Shown: positions 1,430 through 12,695 of the stretch, piece by piece
Position numbering within the stretch: position 1 is the stretch's first letter
Layout of the letters: every line of letters starts with the position of its first letter
Assembly (NCBI GenBank): GCA_005880345.1
Contig: VBGE01000215.1
Coordinates: forward strand, 1-12,695
Source: Chloroflexota bacterium
GTDB lineage: Bacteria; Chloroflexota; Dormibacteria; Dormibacterales; Dormibacteraceae
Length of the DNA stretch: 12,695 nt
Reading direction: 5' to 3'
Made by a program: the position numbers and the translations under genes
The notes under the pieces: model-generated
What the model was told of the DNA's origin: nothing
The model's input: only the letters and a program-made list of their open reading frames with translations
The model's database searches: none

Positions 1430-1441
1430 TTCGGGACCGTG
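1430..1441 (+). other. Candidate att core matching tRNA-Pro anticodon loop
   Basis: TTCGGGACCGTG is identical to the anticodon loop plus 3' anticodon stem of the tRNA-Pro(CGG) remnant at 12168-12179, and both are preceded by GCAG plus two variable bases. The five bases before it (CAGGG) could pair with the last five (CCGTG) with one mismatch, giving an anticodon-arm-like hairpin. No D-arm, T-arm or acceptor stem is present here, so it is not a tRNA gene. A 12-base match by itself can occur by chance in a window of this size. Confidence 0.35.
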
Positions 1442-2063: not shown

Positions 2064-2445
2064 TCTTCAGGAGCCCGAGCACGCCAACGAGTTCGCCCTA
2101 GGGAGTTCAGATAGTGTCCCGTCGCCCCGACCAAAATCGAGTTCAAAATTGGCGATTTCGCTTGCTCTGCGGAGCCGCTGTATCACGGCCGGATCACAAA
2201 TTTTCCGACAAGTCACCCGGGTTGTAGCTCATTAGGGGTGGGTCGCCAGCGGATCTGAACTCGCGCGTCACCAAGCGGAGGCCGAGGTAGGTACCGCATT
2301 TGTGGCTGTATCAAAGGACCGTGAGGCGCCCAGTTTTGAAACCGAAGCTCGTTCCACCGAAGTCAGGACACCCCTGACACTCCACGAAACCCAGGGAGGG
2401 GCCGTCCGGACGGTCGTGCGGTGAGCGCGATGGCCGGACAAAGAA
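2064..2445. other. Intergenic stretch, nothing assigned
   Basis: I find no protein-like frame on either strand in these 382 bases. There is an AT-rich patch around 2143-2160 with a loose inverted repeat (AAATCG ... CGATTT). A D-arm-like TAGCTCATTAGG around 2225-2236 has no accompanying anticodon arm or T-arm and is not a tRNA. The promoter of the following membrane-protein gene may lie here, but I cannot place it. Confidence 0.35.
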
Positions 2446-3333
2446 GTGTGCCCCCCAGCCGCGTGCCTGAGCGTAGGATCGGGCAACAAAGCATTGTCGG
2501 TCAACCTCAAGTCTGGCTGGGCGATCAACTTGTGGATTGCCGCTGGAATTGAGATGGTTGGCCTAGCAGGCGCCTCCATGTGCGCTCTTCTTAGTCCGGC
2601 GATGACGTTGTCAGTCGAAGGATCGGTCGACGTAGTCGGCTCGTCTTTCGTCACTGTCGCCCCAACCGAAATCGAGATCAATTACGTCGACCTGCCGGTA
2701 AAGCTTGAGTACGGTCAGCAGGTTCGCATCGTCTATGTGGACGCAGGGGCACATGGATGGAGCGCGCTGTTTATCACCGTTAAGCCGGGCAGCGCCGATT
2801 ACGTAACGCCGGACGGCCGCGATTACCAGCAAAAGCAAGAAGTCGCTCGGTTCACACGTGCGGGTCTGTTGGCAGGATTGGCCATAGCGGCCTCCGCAGC
2901 CATCGGGGCCATCGTGCTCGGCCTTCGCCGCCGGGCGCCGGCAGTTGTAATCGCGACAGTCGCAGCCCCCTGGACGCTGCTTGGCAGCGTCCCGGCCATC
3001 ATCAATCTGGCTTCACTTCAAGCCGATCGTTCCGTTGAAAACCCCGCCTCTCTCGTCTGGCTGAGCGCTGTCCTCGTGACCCTGACGGCCAGCGCCGTGG
3101 GCCTACTGCGACACGAACCGGGATCCAGAATCCTCCTCGGCACAATCGCGTTAGCGGTTGCCACCAGCGTTGCGTGGTTCGCCGGGTGGATCAGCTATTT
3201 CTCTGACTTCAGTGGGCTTGTACCGCGAGCTAAATTGGTTCGTGATGTGGCCCAGATGTGCTCCTACGCGAGCGCCGCGTTTATTCATACACGTTTCTTT
3301 ACGGGCAACGACGCCACTCGAGTCGCGTCCTGA
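2446..3333 (+). CDS. Five-span membrane protein with one exported domain
   Basis: Unrecognised, 295 residues from GTG 2446; TTG 2494 is another possible start and neither has a clear ribosome binding site. Hydrophobic segments lie at about 28-50, 138-160, 166-191, 202-222 and 229-251. Between the first and second is a soluble stretch of about 85 residues (52-137) with alternating hydrophobic residues typical of beta strands (for example EIEINYVDLPVKLEYG), likely a small beta domain outside the membrane. The RRR after the second segment and the basic C-terminal tail fit cytoplasmic loops. The layout resembles actinobacterial DUF-type membrane proteins with one exported loop, but I cannot name a family. 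It is separated from both neighbours by more than 250 bases, so it is probably transcribed alone. Confidence 0.6.
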   Translation: MCPPAACLSVGSGNKALSVNLKSGWAINLWIAAGIEMVGLAGASMCALLSPAMTLSVEGSVDVVGSSFVTVAPTEIEINYVDLPVKLEYGQQVRIVYVDAGAHGWSALFITVKPGSADYVTPDGRDYQQKQEVARFTRAGLLAGLAIAASAAIGAIVLGLRRRAPAVVIATVAAPWTLLGSVPAIINLASLQADRSVENPASLVWLSAVLVTLTASAVGLLRHEPGSRILLGTIALAVATSVAWFAGWISYFSDFSGLVPRAKLVRDVAQMCSYASAAFIHTRFFTGNDATRVAS

Positions 3334-3599
3334 TGCACGGAAGATGTTTAGCTGCAGCTTGACCACAAGACGACATTGCACCAGCTTCCATGCGGGTGAG
3401 AGCTCCGATTGCACCTCACGGCGGTGGCGAATGGACGTGCGCCCTCTCTCGCGTGGGCAGTGAGGATTTCGAACCGGCAGATGCAAAGTGCTGGGCGAAT
3501 GTCGCTCTGACTGGGAATCTATGGCCAGATCAAGAATCTGTGTGACAAGCGCTATCTAAACCACCTCATCGACTTGGTGATTCAGAATCCGGGTGACGA
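3334..3599. other. Intergenic stretch before the M16 gene
   Basis: Nothing is firmly identified. A frame from 3511 to about 3627 reads rather like protein (it includes YLNHLIDLVIQNPGDE) but has no upstream start and ends just inside the next gene. It could be a remnant or chance. The M16 frame itself has a TGA at 3594-3596, so it cannot extend upstream. Confidence 0.3.
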
Positions 3600-5015
3600 G
3601 TGCGCAGGATCAAGTTGCGCGCCGAGCTGATCTTCAGGGTGGGGCAGGTGGACGAAGCCTTGCCGCGCCGTGGCATCACGCACATGGTCGAGCACCTGGC
3701 TATGCACTTTCGATCGCACCGACCCGATTGGTGGCGAACCCATGCAACGGTTGAGCCGTTCGTGACCCGATTCAATGTCAGGGGTGAGCCAGGCGACATA
3801 TCGAGCTTCTTCTCTCAGCTGGCCGCAAGCCTGTCCGAGCTGCCGGTAGAACGGTTGCCGACCGAGCTGGGCGTCCTGCGCACCGAGGCCGCCACTTCAA
3901 GTGGCGGATCGGTCAAAGAAATCTGGAGCCATAGATTTGGGGCTCGGGGTCTTGGTCTCTCGGATTATCGGGAGTTCGGACTCAATTGGCTCGGACCCCG
4001 CGACGTACGCGCGTGGGCCGAGGAGCGATTCAACGCAGGAAACGCGGTGCTGTGGATCAGCGGCGAAGTTCCAGCCGACCTACGTTTGCCCCTCAGGCCG
4101 GGAAGTCGGTTTCCACGGCCACAGGTCAATCCTCTGGAGCAGGCAACTCCAGCCTTCTACCACCAGGGAAACACAGGGGTCGCACTGTCCCTGTTGACCA
4201 AGGCCGGCATCACCACCGCATATGTCGTGAGCGAATTGCTTGAGGACCGGATCCGGGCGCGCCTCCGCCACGCCGAAGCGCTCGCCTACGAGACCTATGT
4301 CCAGCTCAGGGCAGGCGGGATTACTGCGTTCGCTGATGCGCTTCCAGAAAATGCTGGGCAAGCAGCCGCTTCACTTATCGCGATCGTGCGCGACCTTGCC
4401 GAAAGCGGACATCGAGCCGATGAGCTAGAAAGGGTACTAGCTTCAAATCGCGCTGCTCGAGAGGAGCCGGGCGCCACACTAGAGAGCCTGAACGATGCCG
4501 CTCGGTTTGAGCTTGGGGCTGTGACCAGTACGATTTCCTGGGACGACTACGACAGAGAAGCCAGAGCGCTGACCGCTTCAGAGGTTGCCCGAGCGACCGA
4601 AGCAGCCTTGTCTACAGCGCTGCTCGCGATCCCGGAGGACGTGCCGTTCGCCATCGACGGATTCACGCCGCTGCCCGAAGCAAATGGGCGGACTTTCGCA
4701 GGGAGTCGCGTGATCGCCGCACCAGGCGCCGGCAAAGACTCTGTCATCGACTACTCAGACGAGGGTGTCTCGATTAGCTTGGCCGACGGGACGACCGACG
4801 GATTCGGTTGGCAGGACATCGCAGCGGCCCTGTGGTGGAGCGATGGCACTAGAGCTCTCCTTGGACTGGACGGGTCTGCCCGCCGCATCGTCCCCAAGGA
4901 TTGGGCACACCCAGAGGCTCTTTTCGAAGCCATCCGAGTCCGCGTGCCTGCAGACCGGTGGGTGCCGATGGACGAACCTGCGACGTCGCGTCCACCAGAT
5001 GAGCAGAGGCTGTGA
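3600..5015 (+). CDS. M16 family (insulinase-like) zinc metallopeptidase
   Basis: A 471-residue protein of the pitrilysin/insulinase M16 family, which hydrolyses peptides in a clamshell made of two related domains. The zinc motif HxxEH is intact: H28, E31 and H32 in the sequence GITHMVEHLAM. E96 in GVLRTEAA is the likely third ligand; its distance from H32 (64 residues) is shorter than the roughly 75 usual in the family, so the loop after the motif is trimmed. Residues ~110-160 match the M16 pattern leading to 'NAVLWISGEVP', and ~180-345 look like the second, non-catalytic M16 domain. Residues ~380-460 (IDYSDEGVSISLADG, then WQDIAAALWW) resemble a bacterial PH-like domain. GTG 3600 follows an in-frame TGA, and the usual first beta strand of the family is missing, so the N-terminus is short and may be truncated. 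There is no signal peptide, so a cytoplasmic location is likely. Confidence 0.75.
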   Translation: MRRIKLRAELIFRVGQVDEALPRRGITHMVEHLAMHFRSHRPDWWRTHATVEPFVTRFNVRGEPGDISSFFSQLAASLSELPVERLPTELGVLRTEAATSSGGSVKEIWSHRFGARGLGLSDYREFGLNWLGPRDVRAWAEERFNAGNAVLWISGEVPADLRLPLRPGSRFPRPQVNPLEQATPAFYHQGNTGVALSLLTKAGITTAYVVSELLEDRIRARLRHAEALAYETYVQLRAGGITAFADALPENAGQAAASLIAIVRDLAESGHRADELERVLASNRAAREEPGATLESLNDAARFELGAVTSTISWDDYDREARALTASEVARATEAALSTALLAIPEDVPFAIDGFTPLPEANGRTFAGSRVIAAPGAGKDSVIDYSDEGVSISLADGTTDGFGWQDIAAALWWSDGTRALLGLDGSARRIVPKDWAHPEALFEAIRVRVPADRWVPMDEPATSRPPDEQRL

Positions 5016-5348
5016 GCCCAGCACGTCTAGGGCTCGGCATGGTTCGCGCGGTTGCCGCACTACGACAGACTGTCCCGGTCAGTACAAGGCGGGCTTAGGC
5101 AATGAGTTCAACCTGATGATCTGGAGTCCCACCAATGACATTTCGACGACACCAAGCGGATCGGCGACCTACAAGAACGACGCGATACCACGGCGACTCG
5201 CAGGCCGACGCATCACGTTTGTCTGAATAATGTCGGAGGCGTTCCTGTGTGCGGGCTCGCGCAACGTAATCACGTCTGCTTGTGAGTGCCGTCATCTTGC
5301 TCAGCAGAAGGGAGGCCATCTCCTCGGACCTTGCTGCGTCAAGGCCCC
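5016..5348. other. Convergent intergenic stretch
   Basis: This lies between two genes that end toward each other. A small inverted repeat GAGCCC (5014-5019) / GGGCTC (5030-5035) overlaps the stop of the M16 gene but lacks a T-run. A frame ending at 5226 gives about 45 protein-like residues from about 5092 (including NEFNLMIWSPTNDISTT), but it has no good start or ribosome binding site, so I do not call it a gene. Confidence 0.35.
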
Positions 5349-6137
5349 TCACCGCAGTGTCCAGCCGCCGTCGACGGCGACGGTCTGGCCGACGACAAAC
5401 GACGAGGCGTCGCTGGCGAGGAAGACCAGCGCTCCATTCAGCTCCTCCAGTCGCCCCACGCGACCCATCGGTGTGCGCCGCTCGATCCAATTGACCTGCC
5501 GGGGATCCTGGAGCTGACCTGTCATCTCGCTGGGAAACCAGCCCGGCGCGATGGCGTTGACGCGCACGCCACGTGCCGCCCACTGCGCACCAAGCTCGCG
5601 CGTAAGCCCTACGACCCCTGATTTCGGTGCGACGTATCCAGCCAGCGGGTAGCGCTCGGAGAGAGATCCGAAGCCAGCCACGGAAGCGATGTTCACGATG
5701 CTGCCCCGACCCGCCGGCAGCATGACTCGAGCTGCCTCGCGGCAGCCAATAAAGACTGCGGTGAGGTTTACCCGGATGACGCGCTCGAAGTCCGCCAGTG
5801 ATTCCATCTCGGCCGGACCGCCGTCGATCACGCCGGCGTTGTTAACCATCACGTCCAGGCGGCCGAATCGGTCGACAGCCCTGTCGACGAGCAGGCCGAC
5901 AGCCGCCTCATCCGCGACGTCGGTCGGCACCGCCTCCGCCTGGTCGGCGCCGAGCTCATCGGCCAGCGCGCGCAGGCGCTCCGCGCGCCGGCCGGCAAGC
6001 ACCACCTTCGCGCCGCTCTTAGCAAGAACCCGCGCGAAGTTGGCGCCCAATCCTGACGATGCGCCGGTGACGATCGCGACGCGTCCATTGAGGTCCGACT
6101 GCAGATACGTACTCTCGGTGAAGATCGCAGCCATCAT
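5349..6137 (-). CDS. Short-chain dehydrogenase/reductase (classical SDR)
   Basis: A 262-residue classical SDR, a cytoplasmic NAD(P)(H)-dependent oxidoreductase with a Rossmann fold. Everything expected is present: the cofactor loop TGASSGLG (24-31), an Arg pair at 50-51 after the second strand that favours NADPH, D73, NNAG at 99-102, N124, catalytic S152, and Y168/K172 in YVAPK. The C-terminus VGQTVAVDGGWT is typical. Length is normal for the family. It is closest in style to 3-oxoacyl-ACP reductase (FabG)-like or gluconate 5-dehydrogenase-like members, but the substrate cannot be told from sequence. ATG 6137 is preceded in frame by TAG, so the start is there or at the adjacent ATG 6134. It follows the lipoprotein gene on the same strand after 197 bases and may have its own promoter. 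Confidence 0.93.
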   Translation of the reverse strand: MMAAIFTESTYLQSDLNGRVAIVTGASSGLGANFARVLAKSGAKVVLAGRRAERLRALADELGADQAEAVPTDVADEAAVGLLVDRAVDRFGRLDVMVNNAGVIDGGPAEMESLADFERVIRVNLTAVFIGCREAARVMLPAGRGSIVNIASVAGFGSLSERYPLAGYVAPKSGVVGLTRELGAQWAARGVRVNAIAPGWFPSEMTGQLQDPRQVNWIERRTPMGRVGRLEELNGALVFLASDASSFVVGQTVAVDGGWTLR

Positions 6138-6334
6138 GACCTAACTTGGTCTAGCTCAACGGCTCCAGCAAATAGACGAACGCGGGATCACACAGCTCAA
6201 TTTGCAGCGAGGTGCCGGGCAGAGGGACAAGGCCTTGGGGTCGAGTCCCAGAGTGGACTCCATGTTTGGGAGGTCCTCTGGCACTGGGGGTCATCAATCA
6301 TGCGTCGTTCGGCGAGGCGGCACGATTTCAGAGG
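6138..6334. other. Gap between SDR and lipoprotein genes
   Basis: A perfect 6-base inverted repeat, GAGTCC (6243-6248) and GGACTC (6255-6260), with a six-base loop, lies downstream of the lipoprotein stop and upstream of the SDR start as read on the minus strand. No T-run follows on either strand, so it is not a standard terminator. It might be an attenuating hairpin or an operator. Confidence 0.3.
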
Positions 6335-6796
6335 TCACGTTGATAAGTCGACGCAAGCGAGCACCGCATATGTCCCTTGGGCCGTTAGGCCCTGGACGTT
6401 TGCGTTGCCGGCCATTCCGTTAGGTACAACCCACGTGACCATGGCCGATCCACCCGCATCCGGTGCTATGGGTTTGGCGAACGATTGGCTAGGGCCGAGA
6501 GCGAAGAATTGGCAGGCTAGCGGATCCGCATCAACGATGTAGTTGCCGCCTGGCGTGAGTCCGTGGACAGTCGCTTCTAGCGTGACTCCGGTCGATGTCG
6601 TGGCTAACTGAACCGTTCCAGTCACCGTGCTTCCCGGCTCCGGCACGAATGTGAAGATGGTCGCGGTCGAGCTGGGCGACGCCGTGGGGCTCGGTGGGCT
6701 GGCCCTAGGCGAAGACGTTCTTGCGGTCGAGCCAGGCGCGCTTCCGCACGCTGTCAACAGGAACGCGGCAACAAGTGCCGTATACGTTTTGCGCAT
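6335..6796 (-). CDS. Lipoprotein with a small beta-rich domain
   Basis: A 153-residue predicted lipoprotein of unknown function. MRKTYTALVAAFLLTAC is a classic lipoprotein signal: basic start, hydrophobic core, lipobox LTAC with C17 as the lipidation site. Residues ~18-47 are a Ser/Thr/Pro/Ala linker, then ~48-153 form a probable beta-sandwich with C95 and C148 as a possible disulfide. In outline it recalls CHRD- or Cu/Zn-SOD-like sandwiches (LEATVHGLTPGGNYIV), but it lacks a set of metal-binding histidines, so I do not assign it. A longer start at 6865 is possible but lies inside the upstream gene. ATG 6796 is preferred because it begins the signal peptide and overlaps the upstream stop as TAATG, implying translational coupling with the DUF4242-like gene. 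Confidence 0.82.
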   Translation of the reverse strand: MRKTYTALVAAFLLTACGSAPGSTARTSSPRASPPSPTASPSSTATIFTFVPEPGSTVTGTVQLATTSTGVTLEATVHGLTPGGNYIVDADPLACQFFALGPSQSFAKPIAPDAGGSAMVTWVVPNGMAGNANVQGLTAQGTYAVLACVDLST

Positions 6797-7092
6797 TACA
6801 TCGTTGGCGCCTCGATCTGAATTACCTGCAGGATTCGATCGAACCGAAGGCCTGCGTCGTGGCAAGCCTCGGCCACCGTGTGCTCAGAGTCCGCTTCAAA
6901 GAGGCAGAAAGAGACTTCATCTTTGCTAACGAGCATCGCGTGCACACATCTGATCTCGGTGCCCTGAGTAGTGAGCATCACAGCTGCATTGGAGGCGCGG
7001 CGCGTAGTCGCGACGAGTTGCGACTCAGTAACTCCGGGCCAGTAAGTCTCGACCAAGTAGCGATTCAAAGGTGATTGGTCGGTTCCCGTCAT
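6796..7092 (-). CDS. DUF4242-like small protein (nickel-binding relative?)
   Basis: A 98-residue protein from ATG 7092 that resembles the DUF4242 family, which includes small ferredoxin-fold-like actinobacterial proteins such as the nickel-binding SCO4226. The signature is RYLVETYWPGVTESQL at 11-26, then a middle strand (IRCVHAMLVSKDEVSFCLFEA, 47-67) and an EACHDAGLRFDRI helix at 75-87. Recognition is from memory of family pattern; metal binding is not shown here. A longer start at 7191 would run through the divergent promoter region and its extra 33 residues do not fit the family, so ATG 7092 is chosen. It overlaps the downstream lipoprotein gene by one base (TAATG), and its 5' side faces the LuxR-type regulator across 101 bases, so that regulator may control it. 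Confidence 0.78.
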   Translation of the reverse strand: MTGTDQSPLNRYLVETYWPGVTESQLVATTRRASNAAVMLTTQGTEIRCVHAMLVSKDEVSFCLFEADSEHTVAEACHDAGLRFDRILQVIQIEAPTM

Positions 7093-7193
7093 CCGTCGAC
7101 CGTAGGCCCTTTGTACAGCCTTCGCATCGGGCGATTCCCTATCCGCGGATACAAGGAAGTTGGACGGTCGATGGGGCGTACCCTTTTCCAACT
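7093..7193. promoter_or_regulatory. Divergent promoter region with central palindrome
   Basis: These 101 bases separate the minus-strand DUF4242-like/lipoprotein pair from the plus-strand LuxR-type regulator and must hold both promoters. A perfect 12-base palindrome, TATCCGCGGATA, sits at 7140-7151, about 48-53 bases from both starts. An outer inverted pair, TCGACCGT (7096-7103) and ACGGTCGA (7164-7171), surrounds it almost symmetrically. I cannot identify reliable -35/-10 boxes. A palindrome of this size can arise by chance, but the central position makes an operator plausible. Confidence 0.45.
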
Positions 7194-7985
7194 ATGTCGA
7201 TCTCGGTAGTGGGCCGGCAGACCGAACTGCAAGGCATTGGGACGTTCCTCGAGTCAATAAACGGTGGGCCCCGGGCGCTGATGCTTTACGGCGAGGCTGG
7301 CATCGGCAAGACGACCCTTTGGCAGGAGGGCACAGCGGAAGCGAGGCGCCACGGGTATGCGGTCCTACTCTGCCGGCCGGCACAATCTGAGGTCCAGCTG
7401 TCGTACTCGTCGATAGCAGACCTGCTGGCCGATCTCGACGAAGCGGTGCTGAGCCGACTGCCCACCCCCCAGCGCGAAGCGCTAGAAGTGGTTCGTCTGC
7501 GCTCCCAAAAACCACACGCAACGGTGGACCGCCGCCTCGTCGCCACAGCTTTCCTCGCCGTTCTGCAACGGCTCTGCGACCGAACTCCCGTCTTGCTTGC
7601 AGTCGACGACTTCCAATGGCTCGACCGCACCAGCGCTCAAGCAATCGAGTTCGCTGCCAGACGCGTCACAGGAAAAATCGGATTCATGATTTCGTTCCGG
7701 ACGACCGCACGCAACCTCGATGAGCCCGCATTTCGAGTTGCAAGCCCCGATGGCATCTACCGTCTCGATGTCGGGCCGCTGAGCCTTGCCGCCATTCATC
7801 ATGTTCTCAGAGAGCGCTTTGGACGCACGTATCCACATCCGATACTGGTGCGAATCCACGAGGCTTCCGCTGGGAATCCTTTTTTGGCCCTCGAACTTGT
7901 TCGTGTGCACGGGAGCGGCATTGGTCTAGGGCCACGTCGAAGCTCTGCGACAAATTGTCGGGGCGACTGCAGCCGCTTCGCTTGA
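7194..7985 (+). CDS. LuxR-type AAA regulator, N-terminal ATPase fragment
   Basis: The N-terminal part of a large ATP-binding LuxR-family (LAL/MalT-like) transcription regulator. VVGRQTEL opens an AAA_16-type domain; Walker A is GEAGIGKTT (residues 33-41), Walker B is LLAVDDFQWLD (134-144), and the GNPFLALEL motif near 228-236 is typical of the end of the ATPase core. After about residue 240 the frame becomes meaningless (Arg/Ser/Cys-rich) and stops at 7985. The continuing sequence is in another frame from 7930 onward. ATG 7194 is chosen because the family normally begins a few residues before VGR; the upstream extension to 7071 is not protein-like. The protein would be cytoplasmic and bind DNA with the domain encoded by the next entry. 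It is divergent from the DUF4242-like gene. Confidence 0.85.
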   Translation: MSISVVGRQTELQGIGTFLESINGGPRALMLYGEAGIGKTTLWQEGTAEARRHGYAVLLCRPAQSEVQLSYSSIADLLADLDEAVLSRLPTPQREALEVVRLRSQKPHATVDRRLVATAFLAVLQRLCDRTPVLLAVDDFQWLDRTSAQAIEFAARRVTGKIGFMISFRTTARNLDEPAFRVASPDGIYRLDVGPLSLAAIHHVLRERFGRTYPHPILVRIHEASAGNPFLALELVRVHGSGIGLGPRRSSATNCRGDCSRFA

Positions 7986-8013
7986 AAGTGCAGAGGATCT
8001 TGGTATCGTCGAG

Positions 8014-9846
8014 GTGGACGGTCCGGTGGTCCGATTCACCCATCCGATCCTCGCCTCTGCCGTATACAGCATGGCATCGCCTAAACAGCGACGAGCAATG
8101 CATAGGCAAATCGCCAGTACCCAGCTCGACATCGAAGAGCGAGCCCGCCACTTGGCCCTTGCTGCGACCAGCCGCGATGAGGAGACAATCAGGGCGCTGG
8201 ACGAGGCCGCAGAAAATGCCAGCACACGCGGTGCAGCCGCGGCCGCGGCCGATCTCCTTGAACTGGCACTCAAGCTCGGCGCGCATGACGTCAGCCGCAT
8301 GATTCGCGCCGCGGCGCATCACTATGACGCGGGGGATCCCATGCGCGCGAGAGATCTACTCGAAGAGGCGATTGACAAATTGCCGCCAGGGGAGCTGCGG
8401 GCGGAGGCGCTGAGACTTCTCGCCAGGGAGCGCATTTACGACGATAGCTACCAGGCTGCGGCCCCCCTCCTCGAACGGGCGCTTGCTGACGCCGGCACCG
8501 ACTTGCTGCGCGTCCAAATCGAAATCGATCTCTCGTTCGTGCTCTTCAATCTGGGTCGTCTCGAAGATGCATTGAGCTCTTCTGAACGCATGGTCAAAGA
8601 CGCCGAACGCCTTGCTGATACCGCCTTGATTGCCCAAGCATTGGCGCTCGCGGCAAGCATCCGATTCATGGCGGGAATGGGTTTGGACGAGCCAACTCTA
8701 AAGCGGGCGCTCGCCTTGGAAAGTCGCGTCCATTCCGGGCCGATTGCCCTGACCCCATCGTTAATGGCCAGCCTGATCTGGATGTGGTCGGGTCGACTTG
8801 ATCAGGCCGATATCGGGCTCGAAGCGCTGCACCGCGAATGCCTCGAGAAGGGCGCCGAGAACGATTTAGTGTTCCTCGGCTTCCAGCGTGAGGCGCTTGC
8901 GTGCTGGCGCGGTGATCTCGCCTCCGCAACGCAGGTCGCCAATGATTCTTACGAGCGTGCGCTGCAACTGGGCACCGAGCTGCCGCTCGCCATAGCGTTA
9001 TCGGCCAAAGCACATGCCGCCGCATTTCGTGGCGATGTCGCGGAAGCAAGGAAAGAGGCAGAAGCCTCTTTTGAGATCCTTCAACGAGGGACGCTGGCGA
9101 CGGTAGCACTCGCCCCACTCGGCACGCTTGGGTTTATCGAGCTCTCGGTCGATGACTATCAGGCCGCCGCGACGCGGCTGGCGCCAATGGCGGCAGGCGC
9201 CATTGCGGTGGGGCTCCGCGAGCCATCGATTGTGCCATTTGCACCCAATGCCGCAGAAGCGCTCATCGCGGTCGGCAAGCTGGATGAGGCGACGGTGCTT
9301 GTCGACTGGCTTGAAGACCACGGCCGCCGCCTCGACCGTGCATGGGCCTTGGCAGCTGGCGGTCGCTGCCGCAGTCTTCTGCTCGCCGCAGCGGGCGAGC
9401 TTGAGGCATCGATCCGATGCTGCAAGCTAGCGCTGGCGCAGCATGATCGGATCGAAATGCCCTTCGAGCGAGGTCGAACGATGCTGGTTCTAGGGCGGCT
9501 GCAACGCCGCCGAGGTACGCGGAGGGAAGCTAAAACGTCATTAGAAGCTGCACTTGACGCTTTCACCATCACGGGCACGAGACTTTGGGCTGAGAAGGCG
9601 CAGCGCGAACTTGCTCGTCTTGGTATCCGGCGGGGAAAGGGCGGCGAGCTGACACCGTCGGAACACCGGATCGCACAGCTGGCGGCGAATGGACAGACCA
9701 ACCGGCAGGTCGCTGCTGCGATGTTGATCAGCCCGAAAACGGTCGAGGCCAACCTTGCCCGTGTCTACCAAAAGCTGGACATACGCTCGCGTGCCGAGCT
9801 CGGGCGTCGAATGGCTGAGAAGCAACTCCGAATCCCGACACCCTGA
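8014..9846 (+). CDS. LuxR-type AAA regulator, C-terminal fragment with HTH
   Basis: The C-terminal part of the same regulator. GTG 8014 is only the first possible start; sense codons of this frame begin at 7930, after a TAG at 7927, and encode the family's typical ALRQIVGATAAASLESAEDLGIV stretch followed by VRFTHPILASAVY (split here only by normal residues). Residues ~60-530 are TPR-like helical pairs that serve as the signal-sensing region. Residues ~544-600 are a GerE/LuxR helix-turn-helix: ELTPSEHRIAQLAANGQTN, then QVAAAMLISPKTVEANLARV and YQKLDIRSRAEL. Compared with relatives, the link between the ATPase core and this part lacks roughly 35 residues ('...lv..RL..L....'), so the break looks like a deletion plus a frameshift rather than one indel. 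If real, the regulator is inactive or made as two pieces. Confidence 0.88.
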   Translation: MDGPVVRFTHPILASAVYSMASPKQRRAMHRQIASTQLDIEERARHLALAATSRDEETIRALDEAAENASTRGAAAAAADLLELALKLGAHDVSRMIRAAAHHYDAGDPMRARDLLEEAIDKLPPGELRAEALRLLARERIYDDSYQAAAPLLERALADAGTDLLRVQIEIDLSFVLFNLGRLEDALSSSERMVKDAERLADTALIAQALALAASIRFMAGMGLDEPTLKRALALESRVHSGPIALTPSLMASLIWMWSGRLDQADIGLEALHRECLEKGAENDLVFLGFQREALACWRGDLASATQVANDSYERALQLGTELPLAIALSAKAHAAAFRGDVAEARKEAEASFEILQRGTLATVALAPLGTLGFIELSVDDYQAAATRLAPMAAGAIAVGLREPSIVPFAPNAAEALIAVGKLDEATVLVDWLEDHGRRLDRAWALAAGGRCRSLLLAAAGELEASIRCCKLALAQHDRIEMPFERGRTMLVLGRLQRRRGTRREAKTSLEAALDAFTITGTRLWAEKAQRELARLGIRRGKGGELTPSEHRIAQLAANGQTNRQVAAAMLISPKTVEANLARVYQKLDIRSRAELGRRMAEKQLRIPTP

Positions 9847-9988
9847 AGTCGGCTCTAGCCGCCAGATAGGGAAACGCCCGATGCGAGCCTGCTAGGCGGC
9901 TGATAGCGTCGCGATCGGCACGCGCCGGAGGTTGAACTGGTGCGCCCGTGCACTCGCATCCGCAAGTTGTCGGATTAGGAGTACGAAC
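9847..9988. promoter_or_regulatory. Leader region and ribosome binding site of the secreted-protein gene
   Basis: AGGAG at 9977-9981 lies seven bases before ATG 9989, a standard Shine-Dalgarno site that fixes the start of the secreted protein. AGCCGCC (9857-9863) and GGCGGCT (9895-9901) form a wide inverted repeat after the LuxR stop. With 31 bases between arms and no T-run it is a poor terminator candidate. No clear -10 box is visible. Confidence 0.5.
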
Positions 9989-10173
9989 ATGATCCGCGGA
10001 AGAGCCATGAAGTCGACACGCCGTGCCCTGTTTCTGATAGCCGCGGTGCTCGCGATCTCGGCCCTTTTCGCACCGCCTGCGGCTGCCCAAAAAGGCGCCG
10101 GCCTACTCCCGGCCGGCATCTACCATTTCGACTTCACCGGGGCCGTTTGCGTGCCTGCTGCTCGAGCATCCGT
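9989..10173 (+). CDS. Signal peptide and first segment of a secreted repeat protein (frameshifted)
   Basis: This reads a start, a twin-basic N-region, a hydrophobic core and an APPAAAQ cleavage region: a Sec signal peptide of about 33 residues, followed by GAGLLPAGIYHFDFTGAVCVP. After about 10170 this frame turns Arg/His-rich and senseless (it runs on to 10759), while the frame one base over becomes protein-like (SDFRIDNRLGSATLNTT). Removing one G near 10171 would join CVPAARAS to SDFRIDN and restore a continuous protein. The start is firm because AGGAG sits seven bases upstream. The rest of the protein is the next entry. Confidence 0.7.
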
Positions 10174-10223
10174 CGGACTTCAGGATCGACAACCGGCTCG
10201 GAAGCGCAACTCTGAACACGACG

Positions 10224-11132
10224 TTGACCCCTTCCACTCCGACCTGTCCGGGCTTCGGCCCACCACTGACGACCAGCATCGGCATCAACGCAACCTGGAC
10301 CGGCGTTGGCCCGCTGGCCAACTCGACCGGAGCAAGCGATTACTCGTGCGCCACGTACACCGCTCAGAGCGCCAACCGTGGCCTGACCAACACGGCCACC
10401 GCCAACCTCACCCTTACGACGGTCACAACGCCGGGCGGCACTACCAACACGACGTTTCCGCCTACCCAAACCGCGCTCAACTTCAATCACTCCGACGTCC
10501 AGGCCCACGGGACCGTCGATCCCGGTTGCGGGCCCACCGGTTTTGGCATCGGCCCAACGCCGGCCGGCCATTCCCACTTCTTCGGACTTTTCGCGAACGG
10601 CTTCTTTGGAGCTCCACCGTTCTCGTTCGACCAGGTCTCTCTGGTGCAGAGCAGCACGTCGTTCCAGCCGGCCGGGCGACCGGCGAGCGGCGCCGCCGAG
10701 GACGACCTCAATGTGTCCCTGTTCAGCGGTTCAGGATGCTTCGTGATTCCCTCGTCTGATGTCGTGACGAACGGCCTTGTGTCAGCGTCTGTCCAGACGA
10801 CGATTCCAGGACCGAATCCGCCGGTCTGCGCCGGCAGCTTCCCGCCATTCGGCCTGAACTTCCCGATGACTGTGAGTGCGACGTGGACAGCGCAAGGTCC
10901 AGTGATGACAGTGCACGACCAAAACAACTATCACTGCTTGGGCTACACCCAGGCGACGTCGACTTTCGTGCAGGCGGTTGGCGCCACCTCAACGGCGACC
11001 ATCACCATGCCCGATTACTTCGGCAATCCGCAAACGCAGACCCTGAACAACGGCTTTGGCAACATCACCCAGGTCAGCCAGAGGGTTCAAGCGAACGGGG
11101 TGTTGCAGCAGTCATGTCTCATCCGCGCGTGA
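10224..11132 (+). CDS. Secreted protein with duplicated four-cysteine repeat
   Basis: The main body of an exported protein of unknown function. 10224 is only a TTG inside the frame; the true coding sequence begins with the signal peptide at 9989 and enters this frame at about 10171. It is rich in Thr, Asn, Gly and Pro with few charged residues, as expected for an extracellular beta protein. Two halves are homologous: INATWTGVGP...DYSC (21-42) and VSATWTAQGP...NYHC (217-238), preceded by PTCPGFGPPL and PVCAGSFPPFG. Each half has four cysteines: C(10151), C8, C42, C102 and C172, C202, C238, C298 in this frame's numbering, with spacings of about 32/34/60 and 30/36/60. Two disulfides per repeat are likely. 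The halves are joined by a Gly/Phe-rich linker. I recognise no family. A strong hairpin follows 29 bases after the stop. Confidence 0.82.
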   Translation: MTPSTPTCPGFGPPLTTSIGINATWTGVGPLANSTGASDYSCATYTAQSANRGLTNTATANLTLTTVTTPGGTTNTTFPPTQTALNFNHSDVQAHGTVDPGCGPTGFGIGPTPAGHSHFFGLFANGFFGAPPFSFDQVSLVQSSTSFQPAGRPASGAAEDDLNVSLFSGSGCFVIPSSDVVTNGLVSASVQTTIPGPNPPVCAGSFPPFGLNFPMTVSATWTAQGPVMTVHDQNNYHCLGYTQATSTFVQAVGATSTATITMPDYFGNPQTQTLNNGFGNITQVSQRVQANGVLQQSCLIRA

Positions 11133-11373
11133 TGAAACGATTAGCCGACGGAAAGATGCGGTGGGCCGCCGAGTGAGCCGGCGGCCCAGATTCTTCACGC
11201 GATGACGCGACCTCGGCGCCAATCGGGTTCAGGCGGACGCGCACGGAGCCAAGTGGGTGCGGGGAGAATGAGGCGTCGATAGGGTTTCGGGACTGGGTTT
11301 CCCTGCGTTCCAATCCGTGGCCCGATATCGGTCGGGCGATGAACATCGCGCGGCCACTACGCGTGATGAAACG
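11126..11373 (+). repeat. 14-base direct repeat pair
   Basis: CGCGTGATGAAACG occurs at 11126-11139, where it includes the TGA of the secreted-protein gene, and again at 11360-11373. The copies are 234 bases apart and bracket the terminator. The second copy lies in otherwise unassigned DNA. The rest of 11189-11476 holds no gene I can support; a nominal minus-strand frame there simply reads both repeat copies. Confidence 0.55.
11162..11188 (+). terminator. Hairpin terminator after the secreted-protein gene
   Basis: A perfect 10-base stem, TGGGCCGCCG (11162-11171) and CGGCGGCCCA (11179-11188), with a seven-base loop, is followed by a weakly T-rich GATTCTTC. It starts 29 bases after the stop codon. 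The stem is strong; the short T-tract makes it less certain as a pure intrinsic terminator. Confidence 0.7.
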
Positions 11374-11476
11374 GTATGGAGTCGCGGGCCATCTGGGCGC
11401 TCGGCAAGTCATTAGGAGCACACCGGGTTGGGGAAAAGCGTGCCGGCGAGCACCTCTAGCTACCTAATCGGCCGAT

Positions 11477-11803
11477 ATGAGAATCCGTAAGGGGACCCAG
11501 CGTCGGAGGATGAATCGAGGGTGGCTTGCGGGCTGCGGGGTTGCCCTAACTGTTTGGGTGGTGGTTGCCCTACTTACTGTCTTCTTTGGGATGACATTTG
11601 CACCTCCATATACCCCTTATGGGGGGCTTGTTATGCTCGCGTTGGCACTTGCCGCGCCTTCAGCCCTTAGATTGATTCGCAGCTATCGATTCCGACGCTT
11701 TGATGCCACGGATATCCTCGCGATCGTCTTTCTACTGGTCGCTCTGGCTCTGTTCGTCTGGTCCAATCAACAACTTGCCTCTCCTCGCCCGGCCGTCTTT
11801 TAG
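11477..11803 (+). CDS. Small three-span membrane protein
   Basis: Unrecognised, 108 residues. A basic N-terminus (RIRKGTQRRR) precedes three hydrophobic segments at about 16-38, 46-64 and 80-96, with an RLIRSYRFRRFD basic loop between the second and third. A cytoplasmic N-terminus is expected from the positive-inside pattern. ATG 11477 has no visible ribosome binding site. ATG 11510 has GGAGG directly against it, which is too close for a normal site, so the start is uncertain between these. No motif suggests function. It stands alone between two gene-free stretches. Confidence 0.6.
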   Translation: MRIRKGTQRRRMNRGWLAGCGVALTVWVVVALLTVFFGMTFAPPYTPYGGLVMLALALAAPSALRLIRSYRFRRFDATDILAIVFLLVALALFVWSNQQLASPRPAVF

Positions 11804-12167
11804 GGGGCTAAGGACAAGCTGTTCTGGTCGTGGTCCCCAGGTCAACGTTACGGCCAACCATGGACCGATAAATCGGAGTTGCACGGCACGCCTCGGACAG
11901 GAATGCCGACGGGCAAACCGTGAGAGCTGGCGGCACTCCGGCACTCGGCGAGTTCAGACCACCATTTCTGAAGGTGCCCCGCAGATCTGTTGACGCAAGG
12001 TGCTGAGGCTTCGCCGCAGCCCTTCGCTCCATGGCGCGGGCCGTGTAGCAGATCGTGTAGTAGTCGGACGGAAAGACCACTCAAATCTGGACGGACTATG
12101 TGCTCGTCATAGAAGAATCGAACTGGAATCGATCGTTTCAGTGCTTTTTGGACGAAAGGTCGCAGAA
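11804..12167. other. Gene-free stretch left of the tRNA remnant
   Basis: No frame here looks like protein. The longest minus-strand frame (from 12288) reads antisense through the tRNA fragment, so it is not a gene. A pair of near-identical 9-mers, GTGTAGCAG (12043-12051) and GTGTAGTAG (12055-12063), lies about 105 bases left of the tRNA fragment and may be integrase arm-type sites. Short GGACG[GA]A motifs recur three times between 12065 and 12156. Confidence 0.4.
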
Positions 12168-12212
12168 TTCGGGACCGTGAGGCCCCGGGTTCAAGTCGCG
12201 GGTCCCCGACCA
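12168..12212 (+). other. 3' half of tRNA-Pro(CGG); probable attachment site
   Basis: Read in tRNA numbering, 12168-12174 is an anticodon loop TTCGGGA with T33, anticodon CGG, G37 (all typical of tRNA-Pro), then a 3' anticodon stem CCGTG, a five-base variable loop, a T-arm CCGGG-TTCAAGT-CGCGG with four of five pairs, the acceptor strand GTCCCCG, discriminator A and CCA ending exactly at position 76. The expected 5' half, which would begin CGGGGAC, is absent: the five bases before the loop do not pair with CCGTG and no matching acceptor strand lies 60-100 bases upstream. A tRNA 3' half starting at the anticodon loop is the classic remnant left by tyrosine-integrase insertion. One T-stem mismatch suggests it is no longer under selection. 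Confidence 0.75.
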
Positions 12213-12269
12213 CTTCCCGAACTCGAAGGCGACGTTCCCACCTGCGACCTGACAACGCTCTTGGATTGG

Positions 12270-12286
12270 TGTAGCGCTGATGTAGC
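12270..12286 (+). repeat. TGTAGC direct-repeat pair right of the tRNA remnant
   Basis: TGTAGC at 12270-12275 and 12281-12286, 11 bases apart, about 60 bases right of the tRNA fragment. A similar pair (TGTAGC/TGTAGT, 12 bases apart) lies at 12044-12061 on the other side. Such flanking pairs could be integrase arm-type sites. Confidence 0.4.
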
Positions 12287-12320
12287 ACAACTAGTAAAGT
12301 CCGCCTGACAAGCAGGAGTA

Positions 12321-12695
12321 ATGAGAACGTTGTCTTGGCGTTCAGCCGCCGCGGGAGCAGCGCTCTTGGTTGCTATGGCATGTGGTAGTTCCTCGGTGTC
12401 CGTCGAGCGGTCGGCAGCCTCAGCGACGCCGGATGCGGCCACACGGGCTTACATCGCTTTGGTCCGCGCCTACTGGGCCGACCTTCACGCCGCCGACGTC
12501 GCGTCGGACGGTTCGGATGTCGATGCGAAGGCGTGCCTAGGAGAGATGTCGCCTTCCTCGCCAAGTGACGTGCATGTGGTCGAGCCGCAGATTTGCCGGG
12601 CGTACGCTGTGGCGACGTTGGCTGCGAATGAGAAGTTCCTCGCCAACCTAGAGACGCTCTACGCGCCTCCGAAGTTCGCGTCTGACGACCGCGCG
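12321..12695 (+). CDS. Lipoprotein, partial at window edge
   Basis: An open frame of 125 codons from ATG 12321 runs off the right end. AGGAG at 12314-12318 is a ribosome binding site, although its two-base spacing to the ATG is short. The N-terminus (MRTLSWRSAAAGAALLVAMAC) is a lipoprotein signal with C21 in a VAMAC lipobox, then a short Ser/Ala-rich linker and from about residue 40 a helical domain (ATRAYIALVRAYWADLHAAD and, later, ICRAYAVATLAANEKFLANLET). C72 and C94 may pair. I do not recognise the family and the C-terminus is missing. If the tRNA remnant marks the end of an inserted element, this gene is chromosomal flank. Confidence 0.75.
   Translation, partial: MRTLSWRSAAAGAALLVAMACGSSSVSVERSAASATPDAATRAYIALVRAYWADLHAADVASDGSDVDAKACLGEMSPSSPSDVHVVEPQICRAYAVATLAANEKFLANLETLYAPPKFASDDRA

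Follow-up and report, generated by a model that had tools for sequence, protein, structure and literature searches.

A half tRNA-Pro gene and three further attachment sites

The window that we analysed, 12,695 nucleotides in length, is a whole contig (C123) of a 1.95 Mb draft genome of a Chloroflexota bacterium of the family Dormibacteraceae, which consists of 411 contigs and is 63% complete. Close to its right end, at 12168-12212 on the + strand, lie 45 bases that represent positions 32-76 of a tRNA-Pro(CGG), i.e. the 3' half of the gene, an assignment that rests on the sequence, on the genes of relatives and on a pattern control. The half reads TTCGGGA...CCGACCA and comprises, in this order, the anticodon loop TTCGGGA, the variable loop, the T arm with TTCAAGT, the 3' acceptor GTCCCCG, A73 and CCA. 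It is identical at 42 of 45 positions to the 3' half in complete tRNA-Pro(CGG) genes of relatives, differs from the common half at three positions, and bears marks of decay, since one T-stem pair is broken and the 5' half is absent. ARAGORN found no tRNA in the window, and Rfam gave no match over the window at the gathering score and none up to E = 5 in 11900-12400. This agrees with the preliminary description, which had recognised tRNA-Pro(CGG) positions 32 to 76 without the 5' half.

Directly upstream of the half, at 12026-12167 (+), a class A attachment arm forms the right end of a cassette. It contains TGTAG[CT]A repeats followed by TGGACGAAA, and was recovered by nhmmer with a profile of 58 other A arms (12026-12166, E 2.4e-24). 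The preliminary description had noticed neither this conserved stretch of about 140 bases nor the other sites in the window. Downstream of the half, 12213-12290 (+) is assigned to the left end of the next element on the basis of its sequence and of the motif in relatives; this end is class A-like, with GAACTC near +8 and, about 55-78 nt behind the CCA, a pair of TGTAG repeats, and it is not matched by the B left-end profile (E 1.8). The flank as a whole (12213-12695) had no match in the 60 relatives searched.

The site at 12026-12212 is one of four attachment sites in the window, three of which are of the tRNA-Pro type (one of them weak) and one of the tRNA-Asn type, each with a conserved attachment arm; the reversed window gave no match to the A arm, B arm and Asn arm profiles. 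The first tRNA-Pro site (about 1270-2221) is split. It begins with a class B attachment arm with GGACAC/GGATAC repeats at 1270-1429 (+; nhmmer with 58 B arms, E 5.6e-33 for 1278-1425), which is 85% identical over 130 nt to the arm of locus L090 in blastn. To this complete arm the first 12 bases of the tRNA-Pro half (TTCGGGACCGTG) are joined as an exact 12-mer at 1430-1441 (+). The 3' part of the half, ending in CCCCGACCA, follows at 2105-2133 (+) as a gapped match with a score of 12, which is weak alone and which is located directly before a class B left end with a GAGTTC palindrome and TCAC repeats (2134-2221, +; nhmmer with 62 B left ends, E 6.7e-17 for 2136-2211). About 0.66 kb (1442-2104) is inserted within this half, the middle of which is lost.

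The second tRNA-Pro site (about 11195-11323) is decayed and weaker. It consists of a decayed class B arm at 11195-11285 (+; nhmmer E 5.6e-5 for 11195-11252, from where it presumably extends to 11285) and of a decayed tRNA-Pro half at 11286-11323 (+), which matches at 28 of 38 positions without gaps and lies where the decayed B arm predicts it, while it is weak alone (its score of 18 was reached by 2 of 30 shuffled queries). The tRNA-Asn site (11888 to about 12037) is decayed as well. Its arm with GGCACTC repeats at 11888-11986 (+; nhmmer with 17 Asn arms, E 1.3e-15 for 11888-11981) also matches the loci L252-L255, and the same arm adjoins tRNA-Asn halves in relatives; behind it, at 11987-12037 (+), stands a decayed 3' half of tRNA-Asn(GUU) with a gapped score of 16 (≤12.5 in 200 shuffles). 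A fifth candidate at 2316-2327 (GGACCGTGAGGC) was rejected as a site, as its score of 15.5 is reached by many shuffles.

Since the B-type left end at 2134 and the decayed B-type right arm match each other according to the profile matches at the ends, 2134-11285 (+) reads as one cassette of about 9.2 kb, which we refer to as cassette Y. Its genes include an M16-like fragment, an SDR, an SCO4226-like gene and an AAA/LuxR regulator in two frames, besides others. This AAA/TPR/LuxR regulator appears to be split into frames at 7071-7985 and 8014-9846. In comparisons with relatives, the piece 2134-3800 was matched by two short pieces only, and the piece 11331-12030 by a gene in genome G030 and by tRNA-Asn arms in four genomes.

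The four sites imply that several elements are stacked in the window, and the earlier proposal that the DNA to the left of 12168 is a single element, possibly covering most of the window, had to be abandoned. A single prophage or integrative and conjugative element that fills the window and ends at 12168 would agree with the half, its boundary at the anticodon loop and its direction, all of which fit a canonical attR. However, such an element is contradicted by the attachment sites inside it (about 1270-2221, 11195-11323 and 11888-12037), and neither an integrase trace nor, in the 12 ORFs scanned, any phage structural or conjugation family was found in the window, so that we regard it as very unlikely. 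The integrase profile gave nothing up to E = 10 in the window, and the best tblastn match with seven integrase frames as queries had an E-value of 0.035. What lies directly left of the half (11324-12167) reads as at most a small cassette, of no more than about 0.8 kb.

Copies of the half in related genomes

A 32-base pattern of the half, searched with up to three mismatches, matched in 40 of 110 genomes of the class, and the reversed control in 0 of 110. The copy number together with the reversed control rules out chance, or a pseudo-tRNA that arose by decay alone, as an explanation. The highest numbers of matches per genome were 35 (G003), 21 (G011), 14 (G101) and 13 (G008 and G022); because complete genes are counted too, a count of one can be the gene itself. 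According to a hand tally, matches occur in 36 of 42 genomes of the window's own family (f1), in 4 of 18 of f3, and in 0 of 32 of f2 and 0 of 18 of f4, the zeros of which do not show that arrays are absent, since the pattern misses even the gene there. A 177-base query that spans arm and half (12040-12216) matched in 37 of 61 genomes, with ≤13 candidates scored per genome, so that its counts are lower bounds. All genomes used are drafts, in which the arrays break contigs.

An exact 24-mer was found in at least 118 stretches of genome contigs and in none of the viral contigs. Among the 80 matches listed, 76 come from records whose title gives Chloroflexi or Dormi(i)bacterota/Dormibacteraeota; the remaining four comprise records of Anaerolineae, Thermoflexus and Clostridia with an apparently complete gene (L064, L070, L074) and one of Acidobacteria, in which the half carries an arm (L059) and which may be misbinned. 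The same may apply to the copies in the f3 genomes G044 and G101, and with them to some of the sharing across families; the array on G044:C40 resembles that on G001:C111. The halves decay, with 26 of 152 differing at more than five positions or by an indel.

Complete tRNA-Pro genes, i.e. those that have both an ARAGORN call as tRNA-Pro(cgg) and a 5' half that reads CGGGGGCTGGCGCAG... or closely resembles it, were identified at six loci (L183, L191, L193, L196, L197 and L243). ARAGORN also called tRNA-Pro(cgg) on four halves without the usual 5' half (L189 7410-7484, L190 3810-3884, L209 10000-10078 and L239 1491-1565), the upstream sequence of which is an arm or other DNA, and for this reason we did not rely on it alone. 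The call at L239 was accordingly rejected as a complete gene, as a B arm lies upstream. Annotation pipelines may report halves of this sort as tRNA genes.

In all four loci that contain both the gene and halves (L122, L183, L196 and L197), the complete tRNA-Pro is the 5'-most copy, and the 3' fragments lie downstream of the complete gene in the same orientation, as Islander demands of an integrated island. This supports the earlier proposal of an integration event, from which the half would be a displaced 3' copy left at the anticodon loop. The further expectation that an intact tRNA-Pro lies to the left holds for relatives in these four loci. A complete tRNA-Pro(CGG) was not found in the window's own 63% complete genome, for which Pro(GGG) is the sole tRNA-Pro listed; at this completeness, the absence says little. 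The own genome does contain a second half at C222:418-462, which has about 125 bases upstream in common with the window copy, and we conclude from this that the half is part of a larger repeated unit. Just downstream of this second half (about 560-632 of locus L022), there is a decayed tRNA-like sequence that ends in CCGGGGCACCA.

Arms, cassettes and integrases

On contigs with more than one site, the sites all lie on one strand (23 of 23 contigs). The 55 intervals between sites have a median length of 3979 bp (range 987-52707), which represents upper bounds because decayed sites are missed, and contigs with three to seven sites recur. Cassettes in tandem, each closed by a partial copy of the same tRNA gene, are found both in these 55 intervals and at the three tRNA-Pro sites of the window, one of which is weak. 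Outside this set, and as the one exception in orientation that was noticed, L211 (G026:C14) carries two perfect halves on opposite strands (8525-8569 and 11903-11947), 3.3 kb apart.

When the 154 arms upstream of halves with ≥200 bases of upstream sequence were clustered by BLAST, i.e. blind to motifs, 67 and 64 of them fell into two clusters and 23 remained outside. For the motif positions, the classes A and B were set by their motifs within 200 nt, so that the presence of a motif is given by construction, while its position within the 200 nt is not. In 52 A arms, TGTAGTA had 69 matches in the bin 100-149 nt before the half and 0-1 in the other upstream bins, with TGGACG located nearer to the half; in 56 B arms, GGACAC had 175 matches within 100 nt of the half. 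The A and B arms are unrelated, and both end at one and the same position, immediately upstream of the anticodon loop TTCGGGA (7 bases), where the identity between sites with different arms also starts.

On the other side of the half, left ends carry TCACA or TGTAG repeats at 40-105 nt. A GAATTC-like palindrome is present within 25 nt after the CCA in 60 of 139 tRNA-Pro halves, compared to 0-8 in seven background windows; it also follows Asn halves and occurs in A as well as B cassettes. IS-like ends have been inserted at the palindrome that follows tRNA halves, or they interrupt the half itself (L066, L105, L117, L199; L053, L093, L190, L197).

With the repeated halves, the arms and the common polarity at hand, we consider it very probable that the half in the window represents one of the scars within a tandem row of small elements, mostly integrase-less cassettes, that were inserted serially at the anticodon loop of tRNA-Pro(CGG). 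Each element would carry an attP composed of the right-end arm, the 45-base 3' half of the tRNA and the left end, and a tyrosine integrase would recombine within the shared block, with the crossover probably located in the region that begins at the anticodon loop TTCGGGA. The half brought by the incoming element would restore the tRNA, and the resident half would be displaced downstream, behind the right arm of the new element. Repeated insertion would thus place cassettes between halves, the newest presumably adjoining the tRNA, and most cassettes would have lost an integrase or never had one and would persist as cargo carriers with old attachment sites.

Alternatively, arm and half could form a structured non-coding RNA or a regulatory element with a tRNA-like 3' end that is kept for its own function. 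Arm and half are indeed conserved together in many copies, and the ARAGORN calls on four halves as tRNA-Pro would suit this idea; against it, Rfam has no match in the window, unrelated A and B arms join the same base, and the halves decay, including those of sites 1 and 2 of the window, which makes this explanation extremely improbable.

The matched ends of the cassettes support the serial insertion of discrete units. B left ends occur together with B arms in 21 intervals and with A arms in 5, and non-B left ends with A arms in 19 and with B arms in 8 (p = 0.0003); this test used 53 of 66 intervals, since the arms of 13 were unclassified, near-duplicates between genomes occur among the intervals, the left-end types were set by regular expressions, and the non-B grouping ("A" plus "other") was chosen after the table had been seen. 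A strict A/B Fisher test of the end pairing was not significant (p = 0.56). The association of end types across one half was weak (p = 0.13). Sequence downstream of the half is shared by 59 site pairs, six of which share upstream sequence too. The cassette at L110, for example, lies directly behind the complete tRNA, and the same cassette is found behind the A-armed halves L187 and L189 and the B-armed half L058 (97.5-98.8% identity over 442-600 nt). A clean pair of an occupied and an empty site on single contigs was not found; the triplet L066/L105/L117 was rejected as such a pair on account of an IS-like end at the palindrome.

The many site pairs that share one side only would also be expected if ordinary homologous recombination between repeated halves and arms, instead of an integrase, caused the spread and shuffling, and halves of 45 bases and arms of 130-160 bases are long enough for this. 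Such recombination leaves unexplained the origin of the halves, the common stop base of unrelated arms and the integrase genes at cassette ends. As the sole cause we therefore judge it most unlikely, while it may add to the shuffling.

Regarding the integrase itself, the tyrosine recombinase that the preliminary description had suggested to look for left no trace in the window, while genes or remnants are present in some sister cassettes. L212 is a 3.96 kb cassette with B ends on both sides and a PF00589 ORF of 428 aa, the N-terminus of which is fused to a pyridoxamine-oxidase-like piece, and C-terminal remnants in L213 and L180 are 79-82% identical to its integrase over 62-80 aa. All three are located on the strand opposite to the halves, and their 3' ends face the left half. 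An open relative of 485 aa, 79% identical to the L212 protein and with PF00589, Phage_int_SAM_3 and a weak Arm-DNA-bind match, is encoded on L235; this contig of 9.9 kb breaks off within a half and illustrates how arrays of halves help to explain assembly breaks. The integrase that Islander requires inside each island was thus seen in isolated cases only, e.g. L212 and L235 (the latter with one end seen).

In total, a profile built from 23 integrase frames detected traces in 6 of the 66 complete intervals (6 of 62 distinct intervals, then 0 of 4 further ones) and none in the other 60, so that independent movement cannot be demonstrated for most cassettes. The target here is tRNA-Pro and the integrases found are of the PF00589 tyrosine type, in contrast to the serine recombinase at attL and the ssrA 3' repeat of islands of the Dehalococcoides type. 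When four of them were compared with TIGR02249, the model of integron integrases, they reached 36.8-63.7 bits (L235 52.4, L212 63.7) at a cut-off of 265.

As a sample of the cargo, 30 of the longest ORFs of the intervals were compared with Pfam (E up to 1e-5). Four STAND/AAA-LuxR regulators, two histidine kinases, an amino acid permease, a chromate transporter, dehydrogenases/oxidoreductases, an acetyl-CoA-synthetase-like enzyme, a protoglobin, an ApeA-type HEPN protein and one IS transposase were identified, among others; six of the 30 ORFs had no Pfam match, and none of the 30 fell into a family of phage structural or conjugation proteins. Cassette Y of the window likewise holds an AAA/TPR/LuxR regulator, to which the STAND-LuxR regulators that recur in other cassettes are similar. 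The cassettes may correspond to cis-mobilizable elements (CIMEs), which keep attL and attR and have no integrase or transfer genes; 60 of 66 intervals are without an integrase trace, and the other genes were sampled in the 30 ORFs.

The integrase-less cassettes might still be mobile through integrases encoded elsewhere, in an integron-like manner in which the tRNA is the entry site and the halves are the cassette sites. End types go together even though 60 of 66 intervals are without an integrase trace, identical or near-identical cassettes occur at different positions and in different genera (e.g. L205 and L207, 100% over 600 nt), and an open integrase frame, which could represent such a helper, is found in G022, a genome with long arrays. 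However, loss of the integrase after insertion yields the same pattern, and the remnants at left ends show that such loss takes place; sharing across metagenome-assembled genomes may be due to misbinning; and the scores with TIGR02249, far below its cut-off (52.4 bits for L235 and 63.7 bits for L212 compared to 265), do not identify an integrase of the IntI type. We therefore regard continued mobilisation in trans as possible, without favouring it. The 45-base signature together with the two arm profiles allows many gene-acquisition events per genome to be mapped from drafts, with their direction and probable order. If the serial insertion of small elements at the tRNA holds true, cassettes that mostly have no integrase can accumulate at tRNA genes on an integron-like scale.

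Known systems and parallel tRNA-Asn arrays

The stacked half-tRNA cassettes in this uncultured soil bacterium are best read as an already known type of genomic island on a larger scale, with some relatives carrying dozens of scars; the nearest precedents are the ssrA islands of Dehalococcoides and additive flexible islands. Dehalococcoides also belongs to the Chloroflexota. Its ssrA islands are described as several units in tandem behind a single RNA gene, with a repeat of the gene's 3' end bounding each of them, and the 15 of 31 islands that have no integration module were proposed to be cis-mobilizable (PMC3146451). The arrays described here share the tandem position at one RNA gene, the 3'-end repeats and the members without an integration module. 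They differ by the target and the enzyme, as far as the account of the Dehalococcoides islands goes, with the anticodon loop of tRNA-Pro, a 45-base repeat and a tyrosine integrase instead of tmRNA, a 20-bp repeat and the serine recombinase DsiB (PMC3146451). Further differences are the two main families of arms, the number of pattern matches (up to 35 in one genome) and the tRNA-Asn arrays that exist in parallel.

Partial repeats of a tRNA also mark additive flexible islands, such as the tRNA-Lys island fGI-2 of Methylopumilus (PMC10872708) and those of Ca. Actinomarinales (PMC7771536). In these islands, too, cassettes or islands are added at a tRNA gene (330 bp-42 kb in fGI-2), whereas attachment arms, arm classes or a coupling of cassette ends do not figure in the descriptions compared (PMC10872708, PMC7771536). 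The repeat is 20 bp in fGI-2 and 45 bases here, and the hosts differ (PMC10872708). In Islander, an anticodon-type ("A") attP centred on the anticodon was assigned to 2083 of 3919 islands (PMC4383910), and islands of this type resemble ours in the tyrosine integrase, the displaced downstream fragment in the same orientation and an attP of about 250 bp (PMC4383910). Islander lists only four tandems of three or more in 2168 genomes and requires an integrase in every member (PMC4383910); here, in contrast, contigs with three to seven sites recur and most members are without an integrase trace. Tycheposons, as they are described in PMC10872708, are likewise bordered by tRNA genes and contain a tyrosine recombinase and cargo genes, but measure 4-200 kb, compared to serial half-tRNA arrays with a median interval of 4 kb here. 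Judged by titles, the literature on Dormibacter/Dormibacterota that we retrieved with integrase, mobile-element and genomic-island terms contains no account of such arrays.

The decayed site at 11888-12037 of the window belongs to a parallel set of arrays at tRNA-Asn(GUU), which was also seen at L252-L255 and L286-L304. According to a hand tally of tRNA-Asn(GUU) matches, i.e. genes or 3' halves, two or more are present in 18 of 42 f1 genomes, with a maximum of nine in G022; in f4, each of the 18 genomes has exactly one match and none has two or more, at two mismatches, where diverged extra copies could be missed. The Asn halves have an arm family of their own, with GGCACTC repeats. Integrases on the opposite strand are located near some Asn sites, e.g. 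on G004:C40 (with a broken frame) and on G013:C81, where the Asn gene and the half are 63.6 kb apart.

In the four genomes in which every Asn match was read (G107, G022, G013 and G001), there is one gene each, and the acceptor block of this gene recurs in 16 of 17 halves, with three different acceptor blocks across the four genomes. Both exceptions are found in G001, where one Asn half differs from the gene in the acceptor block and another has a different T arm. Similarly, the tRNA-Pro gene and three halves of G107 have a common variant T arm (four of five pattern matches seen). Because each insertion would swap in the 3' half of the newcomer, compatibility of the acceptor or T stem with the host tRNA would set the host range, and if serial insertion holds true, this compatibility is predicted to limit the hosts that a cassette can enter. 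Against a strict matching of host alleles, two T-arm alleles are mixed in one array on G034:C48.

On a wider scale, the arrays might constitute a lineage-wide, integron-like system of gene capture, in which tRNA genes (Pro-CGG, Asn-GUU and perhaps more) would be the entry sites and half-tRNAs the cassette sites, and in which a few trans-acting tyrosine integrases would move dozens of integrase-less cassettes; we consider this broader scenario rather unlikely as it stands. At about 1690-1745 of L255, a third sequence resembling a tRNA 3' half (GGTTCGAGTCCACGGCGGCCCACCA) is preceded by CTACAAC repeats, which, judging by the sequence, hints at further tRNA targets.
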